A DNA stretch of 64,000 nt from Rothia santali (GTDB taxonomy: Bacteria > Actinomycetota > Actinomycetes > Actinomycetales > Micrococcaceae), in NCBI RefSeq assembly GCF_024199905.1, contig NZ_JANAFB010000005.1, positions 1 to 64,000 on the forward strand, written 5' to 3'. The translations under genes and the position numbers were made by a program. The notes under the pieces were generated by a model. The model did no database searches. It was given only the letters and a program-made list of their open reading frames with translations, and was not told the origin of the DNA. Positions 5,369 to 38,688 of this stretch are shown piece after piece. Every line of letters begins with the position of its first letter. Position 1 is the stretch's first letter.

Positions 5369-5573
5369 CCCTCCACCTTAGCGGGTGCCCGCGACACAAC
5401 CGGCCGGCACGGGGTCATCGAGACGCTCGCCACGCTCCCGCTCGCTACGATGGAGTCCGGCGCGCGGCCCGGCCTCCCGAGCCGCCACGCCCTGTCGCCA
5501 CGCTTTGTCGCCGCGCCCGGTGCACTCCGCGCGCGACGCCGCCCGCCCCGCCTCCCGAGGAACCAGCCCGCCC

Positions 5574-7572
5574 ATGCCCACCGCGCCCGCCGCCACGCCC
5601 TTCGGCACGGCCGTCTCGCCCCGCGACGGCGACCGGCGGTTCGTGCTGCGCGGCCTGGACGGGCTGCGCGCCCTGGCGGTGGCCGGCGTCGTCGTCTTCC
5701 ACCTCTGGCCGGGGCTGCTGCCCGGCGGGCTGATCGGCGTCGACGTCTTCTTCGTGATCTCCGGGTACCTCATCACCGCGCTGCTGCTGCGCGAGGCCGC
5801 CTACACCGACCGGATGCGGCTGCCGCAGTTCTGGATGCGGCGGCTGCGGCGGCTCGTGCCGGCGATGCTCGTGTGCGTCGCGACCTGCGCGGGCCTGGCC
5901 GCGCTGATCGGCGGCGATGTGCTGGCGGGCATGCCCCGCCAGCTCCTCTCCGCGCTGACCTACACGACCAACTGGGCGGGCATCGCCGCCGAGCACGACT
6001 ACTTCCAGCAGACCTCCCCGGAGCTGTTCACCAACTTCTGGTCGATCGCGGTGGAGGAGCAGTTCTACCTCCTGTGGCCCGTGCTCCTGGTGCTCGCCTG
6101 CATGCTGCTGGCCACCTGGCGCGCGCGGCGCCGGGTCCCGCTGGCCCTGGGCGGGCTCTCGGTCCTCGCGATGGCCGGGGTCCTCTGGGCCACGGGGGAC
6201 GCGACCCGCGTCTACTACGGGCTGGACACCCACGCGTTCGGGCTCATGGCGGGCGCCGCGCTCGCCCTGGCCGTCCCCTGGAGCATGTACCCGCGGCGCG
6301 ACGCGGGCGGCGAGCGGTCCCCGGGCGTCCCGCGGCGCTCCGGGGCGCTGAACGCCGCGCGGATCGTGCTGGGCTGGGTCAGCCTCGCGATGCTGCTGCC
6401 CACGGCCCTGCTGCTCACGGAGGCCCAGCCCCGGGTGCTGTTCCCGGGGGGCCTGCTCGCGGCGTCGCTGCTGGCCCTCGGCGTCGTCCAGTGCCTGCTG
6501 CCCGACGTGCGCGGGACCGGGGCCGAGGGGCTGCGGCGGCTGCTGTCCCTCCGCCCGCTCGCCTGGGTCGGGGCGCGCTCCTACGGCATCTACCTGTGGC
6601 ACTGGCCCCTGTGGGTCCTCGCCCACTACGCCGCACCGGGCGCGGACGCGGGCGTGCGCGGCGGCGTCGTGCTGGCGCTGACCGTGGGGGTCGCGGCGGC
6701 CTCGTACCGGTGGGTCGAGAACCCCGTGCGCCGGCTGGGGTTCGGCGGGGCGGTGGGGGCCCTGCTGGGCGGGCTGTTCCGGCCGGGGCGGCCCGCGCGG
6801 CCGCGGCCGCCGCCCTGGCCGCCGCGGTGGCCGGGGTCCTCGGCGTCGGCGCCGCGTGGGTCGGCGCGCCGGAGATGACCGAGGCACAGCGGGTGGTCGC
6901 GGAGGGGGCGGAGTCCGTGGCGAGCGAGCCCGCTCCCCGCCGCCCGCGCCGGAGGAGCCCGCCGCGAGCGAGGGCCCGGAGGAGCCGCGGCCCGCGGGCG
7001 AGGGCGTGACGGTGATCGGGGACTCGGTGACGCTCGCGGCGGCGCCGGCGCTGAGCGAGGCGCTGCCCGGGCTGACGGTCGACGCCGCGGTCTCCCGCGA
7101 CGTCGAGGACGGGATCGCCGCGCTCCGGGAGCGGCTCGACGCCGGCACCCTCGGCGGGATCGTGGTCGTCTCGCTGTCGACCAACTCCGAGATGACCCGG
7201 GAGAAGATCGACCGGGTCGTGGAGATCGCGCGGACCGGGGAGCCGCGGAGGGTCGTGCTCGTCACCGGGCAGGCTCCCCCGGAGCTGACCTGGGTCGAGG
7301 CCTCGAACGCGGCGGTGCGGGAGGCCTCCGGCCCCGGTGGGCCCGCCGTGCTGGCCGACTGGGCGGCCGCCAGCGCGGGCCGCCCGGAGCTGCTGGTCTC
7401 CGACGGCGTCCACCCGCAGCCCGAGGGCCAGCGGCTCTACGCGCGCACGATCGCCGACGCCGTCGACCGGGCCCGCGCGGAGCCCGCGCCCGGCGGGCCG
7501 GGCCCGGTGCGTGAGACCCGACGCGCGAGTCGAAGGCGCCTGCACCGGCGGCGCGCGCTCCCGGCCGCCTGA
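5574..7572 (+). CDS. Acyltransferase-3/SGNH membrane protein (two apparent frameshifts)
   Basis: OafA/YrhL-type protein expected to O-acetylate a cell-surface polymer. The start is ATG 5574 after GAGGAA. The first frame encodes the acyltransferase-3 domain: GLDGLRALAV and VFHLWP near the N-terminus, VDVFFVISGYLI, R-rich QFWMRRLRRLVPA, FWSIAVEEQFYLLWP, and about ten membrane segments ending with YRWVENPVRR. At about 6775-6815 the sense shifts to another frame (a last membrane segment, VAGVLGVGAAWVGAPEMTE), and at about 6925-6950 shifts again into an SGNH hydrolase domain (VIGDSVTLAAAPAL, and DGVHPQPEG carrying the catalytic Asp/His). Each shift fits one missing base in a C/G run; repaired length is about 666 residues. 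Either an assembly error or a true pseudogene. Confidence 0.75.
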
Positions 7573-18764: not shown

Positions 18765-19136
18765 CTAGTAGTAGTACCAGAGCATGTTCATGCGCTGGAT
18801 CATGACCACGATGATCGGCCCGGCCACCGCCAGCATCAGCGTGGACCATCGCGTGCGCTCGGTGAGCGACCACACGAAGGTCCCGGCCGGGATGATCATC
18901 GCGGTCAGCAGGTAGCCGTAGTACTCCCAGGCGTCCCCGGCCGGGCCGTCGGTCGCGAACTGCATGACGATCGAGCCGACCAGGTAGACCACCAGGAAGG
19001 CCTCGAGCAGCAGCACCGAGCCCTGCGAGAGGTCGTCCGGCGCCTTGCCGCGCAGGAACTGGACCAGGCAGACGATCGCGGAGGCCCCGCCCAGCAGGAG
19101 CGAGATCCAGAACCACAGGTCGTATCCCGCGATCAC
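18765..19136 (-). CDS. Small integral membrane protein coupled to truB
   Basis: 123 residues from GTG 19136 ([17 protein letters not shown]), with four hydrophobic segments (about 8-25, 38-56, 70-88, 98-115) and an aromatic C-terminus (MLWYYY). GGAGGG lies upstream. The GTGA start overlaps the stop codon of the shifted truB C-terminal frame, which supports this start and the extended truB. Function unknown. Confidence 0.7.
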   Translation of the reverse strand: MIAGYDLWFWISLLLGGASAIVCLVQFLRGKAPDDLSQGSVLLLEAFLVVYLVGSIVMQFATDGPAGDAWEYYGYLLTAMIIPAGTFVWSLTERTRWSTLMLAVAGPIIVVMIQRMNMLWYYY

Positions 19137-20286
19137 GACGCCGCCCCCTCCCGGTCGAAGCGCTGCCCCGACTCGAAGACCAGGTGCGGCACCGCGACGT
19201 CGCGGCCCCGGCGATGCTGGTCCTGCGCGAGGGCGACGAGGCGGCCATCGGGGGCGAAGCACGCCGTCAGCAGGCGGGCGGGGACGACGGCGTCGCTCCG
19301 GCCCGGTGCCTCCGGCGCGGGGGCGTCTCCGGGCCGTGTGGCCGCGACGTCTCCGCCCGGCTCCGCGCCGCCGCCGGCCGGCAGCGCCGTCGCCCGCCGG
19401 GGCGGCGTCGGCCGTGACGGCGCCAGCCTCAGGTTCCGCCGGTGCCGAGGGGGCGATCCAGCGGCCGTTGGAGAGGTCCGATGGCCTCCTCGGCCGTGAG
19501 CTCCCGGACCGCGAACAGGCGGCGGGCCGCCTCCTCGAGCGGCAGCAGCGGCAGGCCGCGGCCGGACTCGGCGGCGGCCGCCAGCTCCTCGAGGGTCGCG
19601 GCGTCGTCGAGCACGACGTCGCCCACCCGCGTCCGCCGCAGCGCGGTCAGGTGGCCGCCCACGCCGAGCGCGCGCCCAAGATCCCGGGCCAGCGCCCGGA
19701 TGTAGGTCCCGGAGGTGCAGGAGACGACGACGTCGAGGTCGATCGCCCCGGCGGGCGCCTCCCCCGCGCCGTCGGCCGCCGCGTCCCGACGGACCGTGGT
19801 CAGCTCGAACTCGTGGATCGTCACCGGGCGGGCGGCGAGCTCGACGTCCTGCCCCGAGCGCACCCGGGCGTAGGAGCGGACCCCGTCCACCTTGATCGCG
19901 GACACCGAGGACGGCACCTGCCGGATCTCGCCCGTGAGCTCGCGGATGCCGGCGCGGATGGACTCCTCGGTCACGGCCGCCAGCGCCTCCGGGGAGGCGG
20001 TCTCGAGCGGGTCGCCCTCGGCGTCGTCCGTGACCGTGGAGACGCCCAGGCGGATGGTCGCCGCGTACGTCTTCGACGCGCCGCTGACCCAGGTCAGCAG
20101 CTTGGTGGCCTTGTTGACCCCGATCACGAGCACGCCGGTGGCCATGGGGTCCAGCGTGCCGCCGTGGCCGACCCGGCGGGTCCCCGCGACGCGGCGCATG
20201 CGGGCCACGACGTCATGGCTCGTGAAGCCGGCCGGCTTGTCCAGGACGATCAGCCCGGACGGCCCGCTCCCCTGCTTCCGGGCCAC
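19133..20286 (-). CDS. truB: tRNA pseudouridine-55 synthase (C-terminal domain frameshifted)
   Basis: Makes pseudouridine 55 in the tRNA T-loop. Catalytic domain: [17 protein letters not shown], the catalytic aspartate in [17 protein letters not shown], and [13 protein letters not shown]. The start GTG 20286 immediately follows the rbfA stop. The uninterrupted frame stops at 19429 (285 residues), but the family C-terminal domain continues in other frames. From about 19482 the next frame reads [20 protein letters not shown], and from about 19375 the third frame reads [18 protein letters not shown], ending at 19133. Each switch fits one extra or two missing bases. The extended end overlaps the next gene by GTGA. 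Confidence 0.88.
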
Positions 20287-20910
20287 CTACTCGGCGTCTC
20301 CGGTCCGGCGGGCGGAGCCCTCGGCGTCGCGCTCCTCGGCGGACGACGCAGTGTCCTCCCCCTCCTCGACCTCCTCGGCCGTGACGGGCGAGCCGGAGTC
20401 CGGGTCGGCGGGCTCCTGGTCGGCGTCGCCGGACAGGTCCTCCTCGACGGGGTCGTAGGCGGTCATGAGGTCTTCCTCTCCCTCGGTCTCCTCGTCCTCC
20501 CGCTTGTACGGGTCGGACTCGCCCGCGTAGGCCGCACCCTCGGCGGCCTCGGCGAGCTCGGCGTCCCGGGCGCGGGCCTGGCGCAGGATGTCCTCGATGT
20601 GGCTCGCGTTCTCGGGCACCTCGTCGGGCACGAACGTCAGCGTCGGGGTCAGCCGGGCTGTGATGTTCTTGCCGACCTCCGAGCGCAGCACGCCCTTGGC
20701 CGACTCGAGGGCGGCGCGGGTCCCGGCCGTCTCCTCCTCGGTGCCGTACACGGTGTAGTACACGGTCGCGTGCTGCAGGTCGTTGGTCACGCGGGCGTCG
20801 GTCACGGTCACGAACCCGAGCCGCGGGTCCTTGATCCGCCGCTCCAGGGCGCGGGCCACGATGACCTTGATGCGATCGGCCATTCGGGCCGCGCGGGCTG
20901 CATCAGCCAT
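20287..20910 (-). CDS. rbfA: Ribosome-binding factor A with long acidic tail
   Basis: 30S maturation factor. Residues 1-125 form the RbfA fold ([44 protein letters not shown], then [11 protein letters not shown]). The protein continues for about 75 residues in a Glu/Asp-rich tail, making 207 residues against the usual 120-150. The start ATG 20910 has AAGGAG six bases upstream. It directly abuts truB. The tail is probably disordered. Confidence 0.93.
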
Positions 20911-20962
20911 GCTCTCTCCTTGCTCTCGCGGCCCCGGCACGGGGCGCGCTCTCGGTCAGCCG

Positions 20963-21056: not shown

Positions 21057-23955
21057 CTAGACGCGGGGCTTCTCCCGAAGCTCCCAGGTCTCGATGATGT
21101 CGCCTTCCTTGATGTCGTTGAAGGAGCCGAGCCCGATGCCGCACTCGTATCCCTCGCGCACCTCGGTGGCGTCGTCCTTGAACCGGCGCAGCGACTCGAT
21201 GGTGAGGTTGTCCCCCACCACGTTGCCGTCGCGGACCAGGCGGGCCTTGGCGTTGCGGCGCATGATGCCGCCGCGCACGATCGAGCCGGCGATGTTGCCC
21301 CACTTGGAGGAGCGGAAGACCTCGCGGACCTCCGCCGAGCCGAGCTCGACCTCCTCGTACTCCGGCTTGAGCATGCCCTTGAGGGCCTGCTCGACCTCGT
21401 CGATGGCCTGGTAGATGACGGTGTAGAACTTCATCTCCACGCCCTCGCGCTCGGCGAGGTCCGTGACGCGCTCGGCCGGGCGGACGTTGAACCCGATGAT
21501 GATGGCGTTGTCCACCGTCGCCAGGTTGACGTCGTTCTGGGTGATCGCGCCGACGCCGCGGTGGATGACCCGCAGCTGCACCTCGTCGCCGTTGCCGACC
21601 TCGATCTTGTAGAGCGAGTCCTCCAGCGCCTCGACGGCACCGGAGACGTCGCCCTTGATGATGAGGTTGAGCGTGTCCATCTTGCCCTCGGCCACGGCCT
21701 CGTCGAAGGACTCCAGCGTGACGCGCTTGCGGCGCTTGGCCAGCTGGGCGTTGCGGTCCGCCGCCTCGCGCTTCTCGGCGATCTGGCGGGCGGTGCGCTC
21801 CTCCTGCGTGGACAGGAAGGTGTCGCCCGCTCGCGGCACCGTGTTCAGGCCGAGGACCTGGACCGGACGCGAGGGCTCGGCCTCGGTCACGGCCTGGCCG
21901 TTCTCGTCGAACATCGCGCGCACGCGGCCGTGGGCCACGCCCGCCACGATGCTGTTGCCGACGCGCAGCGTGCCGGACTGGACCAGGACGGTCGAGACCG
22001 CGCCGCGGCCCTTGTCGAGGTTGGCCTCGATCGCGACGCCGCGGGCGTCCTTGTCCGGGTTGGCCAGCAGCTCCAGCGCACCGTCCGCGGTGAGGCACAC
22101 GGCCTCGAGCAGCGAGTCGATGTGCTGGTTCTGGCGCGCGGAGACGTCGACGAACATGGTGTCGCCGCCGTACTCCTCGGGGACCAGGCCGTACTCGGAG
22201 AGCTGGCCGCGGATCTTGTCCGGGTTGGCGCCCTCCTTGTCGATCTTGTTCACCGCGACCACGATCGGCACGCCGGCCGCCTGGGCGTGGTTCAGCGCCT
22301 CGACGGTCTGCGGCATGACGCCGTCGTCGGCGGCCACCACGAGCACCGCGATGTCGGTGACCTTGGCACCGCGGGCACGCATGGCGGTGAACGCCTCGTG
22401 GCCCGGGGTGTCGATGAAGGTCAGCTTGCGGTCCTGGCCGTCGACCTCGGTGGTGATCTGGTACGCGCCGATGTGCTGGGTGATGCCGCCGGCCTCGCCC
22501 TCGATCACGTTGGTGTTGCGGATCGCGTCGAGCAGACGCGTCTTGCCGTGGTCGACGTGGCCCATGACCGTGACGACCGGGGGACGCGCCTCCAGCTGCT
22601 CCTCGGTCTCGGCCTCGCGCTCGCCCTCCAGGTCGATGTCGAAGGACTCGAAGAGCTCGCGCTCCTCGTCCTCCGGTGAGACGATCTGGACCTGGTAGCC
22701 CAGCTCCTCACCCAGCAGGGCGAAGGTCTCCTCGTCCAGGGACTGGGTCTGCGTGGCCATCTCACCGAGGTGGATGAGCACCGTCACCAGCGCGGCGGGG
22801 TTCGCGTTGATCTTCTCGGCGAAGTCCATGAGCGAGGCGCCGCGGCGCATGCGGATCACGGTCTCGCCGTTGCCGCGGGGGACGACGACGCCGCCCACCG
22901 CGGGAGCCTGCATCTGCTCCAGCTCGTGCCGCTTCGCCTGCTTCGACTTGCGCTGCTTGCGCTTGGAGCCGCCGCGGCCGAACGCGCCCTGCGCGTTGCC
23001 GCGACCGCGGCCGGGACCGCCGCCGCGGGCGGGGCCGCCGCCACCGGGGCCGCCGCGGCGCGGGCCGCTGCCGGCACCCGCGCCGGCACCCGGGCGTCCT
23101 CCGACGCCGGGGCCCATCTGGCGGGCATCATGTTCGGGCTGGGCGCGCGCCGCCGCTGGCCGCGGGCGCGGGGCGCCGGGACGACCCGCACCGGCCGCCT
23201 GGCCGGGACGCGGGCGCCCTGGCCCTGGGCGGGACGCGGGGCACCGGGGCGGGGACCGCCGCGGCGCTCGCCGCCCTGACCCTGTCCCTGGCCGGCCTGG
23301 CCGGGACGCGGCGCGCCGGGGCGCGGGCCGCCGCGGCGCTCGCCGCCGCCCTGGCCGCGGCCGCGCATGCCCTGCTGAGAGGCGAAGGGGTTGTTGCCCG
23401 GACGCGGCGCGCCCGGCTTGGGGCGTTCGGGCGCGCGGCCGAGGGCCGCGGACCGGGGTCGGCGCGTCGGAGGGGCGTCGCTCGCGCGCATGCCCTGCTG
23501 CGAGGCGAAGGGGTTGTTGCCGGGACGGTGCCCGGCTTCGGCGCGGGCTTGGCGGCCTGCGGGGCCTCCTGGGCGGGGCGCTCCTCGCGGGCCGGGGCGG
23601 CCTGCTCCGGGGCGGGCTTGGCCTGCGGGCCCGGCTTGGGCGCGGAGGACTGCGGACCGGGCGTGGGCGCGGTCCGGCCGGCGGTGGCGGGGGTCGCGCC
23701 CGAGGGCTTCGGGGCGGCGCCGGGCTTGGCGGCGTCGTTCCCGGGCTTGGGCGCGGAGGTCTGCGCGGACTGCTGGCCGGGCCGCGGGGACTTCCCCCGG
23801 CCGGCGAAGGCGGTGCGCAGCTTCTTCTCCACGGGGGGCTCCACCGTGGAGGATGCACCTCGGACGTACTCGCCGAGCTCTTGCAGCTTGGCGACGGCTT
23901 CCTTCGAGGTGACGTTGAGCTCCTTGGCGAGCTCGTGAACGCGGGGCTTAGCCAC
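21057..23955 (-). CDS. infB: Translation initiation factor IF-2 (at least two apparent frameshifts)
   Basis: GTPase that places initiator tRNA on the 30S subunit. The start GTG 23955 ([20 protein letters not shown]) has GGAGA upstream and encodes the IF2 N-terminal helical domain. The Ala/Pro/Lys then Gly/Arg-rich linker changes frame near 23520 (into [10 protein letters not shown] repeats) and again near 23120-23200 (into [11 protein letters not shown]). The third frame then reads [18 protein letters not shown] and the complete core: [12 protein letters not shown] (G1), DTPGHEAFT (G3), NKID (G4) and domains II-IV to the stop. Each shift fits a missing base; repaired length is about 966 residues. 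As IF-2 is essential, sequencing error is the likely cause. Confidence 0.93.
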
Positions 23956-24117
23956 ATTTCTCCTGTCTCGGTCTGCGCCGAAACAGGCCCAGACCGTTTA
24001 GTTCCGGATAAGGTCCCCGGCGACCGGATCGGTCGCGGGAACGCCGTTGGCAGAGCACGGTGAGGTACTCATTGCGCGGCACTCATCGGGTTTCCATCGG
24101 TTTTCTGGCTCGCTTTC

Positions 24118-37972: not shown

Positions 37973-38688
37973 CTAGCGACCTTCCGCCGAATACGCGTCT
38001 GACCAGCGCAAAGTCTGGATCAGCTCGCCCACTCGGGACATGAAGGCGTCCACCTGGGCCTCGTCGTAGGCGGCGCGGCCGTTGGCCACGCGGAAGGCCG
38101 CGTCGCGCAGCGGGCGCGGGTGCACCCGCTCGGCGGTGCGGAAGTGGACCAGCAGCTCCTCGCACAGCCGGTCCACGTCCCCGGCGAGGTACCCCAGGGT
38201 CCGATGCCGCGCCGGGCGGCGGAAGCGCTCCCCCGGCTCCCGGCGCAGGCGGCCGGTGACCAGCTCGGCCAGGTCCTCGGCCCGGGCGCGCAGCGCGGGC
38301 GCCCGTGCTCGGCCGCGAAGCGGGCGCACTCGGCGCGCGCGAGGCGGTCCTCGTAGGAGTCGAGCACCGAGTCGACGTCGGCGGCGTCGTACCCGCCGTC
38401 CTCCGGGGCGAACGACGCCGCCCGCACCCCGGCCGAGGAGATCCCCGGCTCCCGCCCGGCCTCGGCCGCCCGCAGGCCCTCCTCGCACTCGCGCACGAAG
38501 GACTCCACCTGCGCCGCCGCGTAGCCGCGCGTCCGGGCGGGGACGCGGCGGATGCTGTCGAGCTCCTGGGTCGCGGTGATGCTCGGCTCGGGCCCGGCGG
38601 TCCGCCCGGGCTCCGCAGTCCGCTCGAGCGGCTCGGACGGCTCGGGCCGCTCGGCGCGGCCGCCGCGGGGATCGTCGGTGCTGGGCAT
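37973..38688 (-). CDS. DivIVA-repeat protein (one apparent frameshift)
   Basis: Start ATG 38688 with AGGAGG upstream. After a polar N-terminus the first frame carries two DivI1A-type repeats (RVPARTRGYAAAQVESFV, and SFAPEDGGYDAADVDSVLDSYEDRL). At about 38290-38310, in a GGGCGCCCG stretch, the frame changes and two more repeats follow (RHRTLGYLAGDVDRLCEELL, and FRVANGRAAYDEAQVDAFMSRVGELIQ) to the stop at 37973. One missing base explains it; repaired length is 238 residues. DivIVA-type proteins mark cell poles and septa; here only the short repeats, without an evident long coiled coil, are seen. It precedes nothing obviously coupled; cdsA is 32 bases upstream. Confidence 0.72.

Follow-up and report, generated by a model that had tools for sequence, protein, structure and literature searches.

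A truB gene split over three reading frames in a Rothia santali assembly is very probably an ordinary gene with two single-base consensus errors

The TruB discussed here is closest to actinobacterial TruB, for which the best match among solved structures is tRNA pseudouridine synthase B (PDB 1sgv); the TruB of genome G019, the nearest relative that we found, matches it at 4.3e-73. In G019, truB is a single frame of 388 residues. Regarding genes in which the frame changes, the part of the GeneTack survey drawn on here (PMC3711429) holds that singleton frame changes validated by BLASTp are expected to be sequencing errors, that frame changes confirmed by Pfam may also be indels in pseudogenes, and that a frame shift near the 3' end is likelier to be a true indel than one elsewhere.

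We analyzed a window of 64,000 nucleotides of Rothia santali (contig NZ_JANAFB010000005.1, positions 1 to 64,000), in which truB is called on the minus strand as an ORF of 285 residues, from a GTG start at 20286 down to 19429. The gene order is infB, rbfA, truB, and a small membrane gene, with rbfA (20287 to 20940, minus strand) directly upstream of truB and without any shift detected. The called ORF matches both the TruB_N catalytic domain (PF01509, 156 bits for a cut-off of 27.3) and TruB_C_2 (PF16198, 48.5 bits for a cut-off of 29.3), and past about 19482 it leaves the TruB frame. Its last residues before the stop at 19429 are unlike the TruB of relatives.

The rest of the gene is found in the 2 other frames of the minus strand. 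A second-frame segment (19387 to 19480) contains part of the C-terminal domain and a variable linker, whose counterpart G019 reads in frame, and a third-frame segment (19133 to 19386) contains the rest of the domain, ending in GAAS before a TGA stop at 19135-19133. Each of the 2 frame changes corresponds to a single extra base of the window. The first lies at about 19481-19482; the codon-usage model puts it at 19481 (95% range 19476 to 19483), and in the DNA alignment to G019 the window has one base more at about 19482. The second falls in the variable GC-rich linker, in a range of 19375 to 19444 with the best scores at 19385-19390; it was placed near 19388, or at about 19386 by the codon-usage model, whose resolution at this site is within 70 bases. 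The third-frame segment matches the second half of TruB_C (PF09142, positions 28-54) with an E-value of 2.7e-5 and 24.2 bits, which is below the curated cut-off of 28.7, while the TruB of G019 matches the same domain at 35.4 bits in 2 stretches, the best one covering positions 1-27. The domain is thus not read in one frame as in relatives, the window's copy being split over 3.

The original prediction, made from the window alone, was that peptides of the TruB C-terminal domain are encoded in other frames past the in-frame stop at 19429, and that the final TGA overlaps the start of a membrane-protein gene as GTGA. Both are present: the peptides lie at the predicted coordinates and the tail to which they belong is found in all 138 relatives' loci examined, while the GTG at 19136-19134 of the 123-residue membrane-protein gene (18765 to 19136, minus strand) overlaps the truB stop as described. 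Of 34 same-genus genomes, 17 show such an overlap too, as ATGA or GTGA with the start of a gene of 123-124 residues whose beginning is similar, a likeness judged by eye. The 123-residue membrane-like protein gave no Pfam match in a scan that used the ORF starting at the upstream GTG 19262.

We then considered whether the hidden tail is coding, since high-GC DNA is rich in long spurious ORFs and these frames could merely resemble TruB by chance. A codon-usage model, trained on the other genes of the contig with truB and infB left out, scored 137.8 nats with 2 frame switches, an advantage of 66 nats over a reading without any switch (71.6) and of 12.5 nats over the best-placed single switch (125.3). 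Taken alone, the shifted segments were weakly above background (2.7 and 6.7 nats), while the other frames in the same places ranged from -16.7 to -62.1. A single shift near 19437 was rejected, being 12.5 nats worse than 2 shifts and leaving a conserved peptide of 11 residues unread. The silent sites were compared with G019 over the last 46 codons, stop included, as the linker is too divergent to be compared. Of the codons that differ, 9 do so silently and 5 change the amino acid; 10 of the 16 substituted bases are at third positions, and 41 of the 46 codons keep the meaning that they have in G019; in a stretch of 150 codons of the N-terminal part, the corresponding numbers were 41 silent and 20 changing codon differences. 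The loss of silent-site bias that marks an old pseudogene after its break was not seen in these 46 codons. Chance open frames, which we regard as scarcely credible, are therefore refuted by the codon-usage model, the silent-site pattern, and the TruB_C match, and the same 3 observations suggest that selection has acted on the tail as part of TruB, either up to the very recent past or to this day.

We also looked for the same break in relatives. The comparison included 58 genomes and the best 80 of 298 further loci, giving 138 loci, 134 of which had distinct last 120 residues. In all 138, the TruB protein extends at least 43 residues beyond the point matching residue 268, past which the window's ORF has only 17 residues, in another frame. 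The original prediction had itself said what would speak against it, namely relatives whose TruB stops where the truncated one does, and none of the 138 loci has a truB ending near there; a natural truncation of truB in relatives was rejected on this count. A second intact copy elsewhere was rejected as well, because the host genome (3.3 Mb in 84 contigs) gives a single truB match. The relatives also bear on programmed frameshifting, in which the ribosome would shift +1 twice to produce a full TruB. All 3 frame pieces do stay coding-like, as such a mechanism would have it. On the contrary, the frame break is conserved in none of the 138 loci examined, the ORF continuing in frame past it in every one, and inspection by eye revealed no run-type slippery sequence at the first site. 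Moreover, we know of no housekeeping gene with 2 successive programmed shifts. We therefore rejected programmed frameshifting, as the break is not conserved, and consider it highly implausible.

We next asked how frequent such shifts are in the assembly. By frame-aware protein-to-DNA alignment, 481 kb of the window's genome were compared with 464 kb of G019, which replaced an earlier comparison of all ORFs that had flagged 26 of 242 and 17 of 247 ORFs and mixed shadow ORFs with genes. In 21 of the 190 aligned G019 genes, we found one-base shifts with support on either side, 44 in total. As shifts in the first 64 residues may reflect wrong starts, 9 were dropped, and 35 shifts in 12 of the 190 genes remained; like shifts are thus found in other conserved genes of the assembly, infB included. 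Gene names were given by Pfam, with which 10 of the 21 shifted genes were scanned besides truB. Per gene, there were 4 shifts in infB, 2 in truB, 2 in an acyltransferase-domain gene, and 17 in a gene with UvrD-helicase and PD-(D/E)XK domains. The gene infB, essential in bacteria, has its ORF at 21057 to 23957 on the minus strand and its 4 one-base shifts relative to G019 in the N-terminal region (23529, 23212, 23139, and 23119), while sharing 94% amino-acid identity with G019 over the gene. The UvrD-helicase/PD-(D/E)XK gene, on contig C9 (L167:7900-10000), has its 17 one-base shifts within 2 kb at about 90% amino-acid identity to G019, and is likely a hot spot of bad consensus. The acyltransferase-domain gene (5385 to 7572, plus strand), of 696 residues in G019, appears as 2 ORFs with shifts at about 6792 and 6926. 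A further supported one-base shift is found at 38295 of the window, in the counterpart of a G019 gene of 220 residues with no Pfam match at 1e-5.

In the reverse comparison, placing genes of the window's genome on G019 DNA, we found 20 shifts in 9 of 190 genes, and 15 in 5 genes after applying the rule on starts, 9 of the 15 being in infB and the UvrD/PD-(D/E)XK gene. The remaining 6 shifts in 4 genes are noise, faults of G019, or real differences. We also calculated the non-silent/silent ratio, which was 0.42 for the UvrD/PD-(D/E)XK gene, 0.49 for infB, and 0.65 for truB, compared with a pooled value of 0.59 (5th-95th percentile 0.23 to 1.16) for 157 one-frame genes, a control set that still contains overlapping shadow ORFs. 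Considering these ratios, the shifted genes are unlike old pseudogenes; in particular, 17 old indels would have erased the silent-site bias, so the ratio of the UvrD/PD-(D/E)XK gene indicates that its indels are not old. Finally, the 44 shift sites (20 clusters) had a mean GC content of 79.2%, against 72.9% at random places in the same contigs, none of 20,000 resamples being as high; the 9 doubtful sites were kept among the 44 in this test.

Such a pattern of shifts is what poor consensus in DNA of extreme GC content would look like, and the stretch of truB from 19300 to 19520 has 81.4% GC. GC-rich linkers may also acquire indels by natural evolution, and the first truB site is not a homopolymer, which leaves the type of error there unexplained. 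We therefore weighed real and recent frameshift mutations, with which the strain would make a TruB of 285 residues without its C-terminal domain, the second shift having accumulated freely after the first. Both shifts fall in the gene's tail, leaving the catalytic domain intact, and truB is dispensable in E. coli. In addition, according to the part of the GeneTack survey considered (PMC3711429), a shift close to the 3' end reflects a true indel more often than one elsewhere. On the contrary, 2 independent indels are needed in a tail that keeps its silent-site pattern, so that any loss of the C-terminal domain must be very recent, equivalent shifts are present in infB and other conserved genes of the assembly, and truncated truB is absent from the 138 relatives' loci examined. 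Overall, recent mutation appears improbable. The frames, the relatives, the domain match, the silent sites, and the other shifts are all observed in the sequence data; from them we infer, as very probable, that errors and not mutations gave rise to the shifts.

Taken together, we have high confidence in a joint reading in which the locus is an ordinary actinobacterial truB, predicted to encode tRNA pseudouridine-55 synthase, and its deposited consensus carries 2 single-base insertion errors. These would lie in the stretch of 81% GC, one at about 19482 and the other at about 19388, and in the living cell truB would be a gene of about 383 codons running in one frame through to the TGA at 19135-19133, which would overlap the start of the membrane gene. 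The original prediction that the 285-residue TruB is an artefact is, considering the other one-base shifts of the contig, infB included, the best-supported reading, most likely by way of 2 one-base errors.

There is accordingly no new biology in the truncated truB, and the significance of consensus errors would concern data quality only, as the annotation would be wrong both for a conserved gene and for the overlap that joins it to the following one. The infB gene, the UvrD/PD-(D/E)XK gene, and the acyltransferase-domain gene of this assembly seem to be affected likewise, and claims of truncated or lost genes made from it need caution. Were the loss instead real and recent, the strain would just have lost the C-terminal TruB domain together with the overlap between the truB stop and the membrane-gene start, and would offer a natural test of the need for this domain in a high-GC actinobacterium.

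In comparison with known systems, the case resembles the singletons of the GeneTack survey (PMC3711429), in that the frame change is present in one genome only and both halves match one intact protein; the survey differs in having drawn on complete genomes, and its main text, as far as covered here, makes no mention of "truB." Compared with known TruB, G019 carries TruB_N, TruB_C_2, and TruB_C, and the window matches all 3; unlike known TruB, its gene is spread over 3 frames. Before the last part of the TruB_C domain, the window has a variable linker, as do its same-genus relatives.
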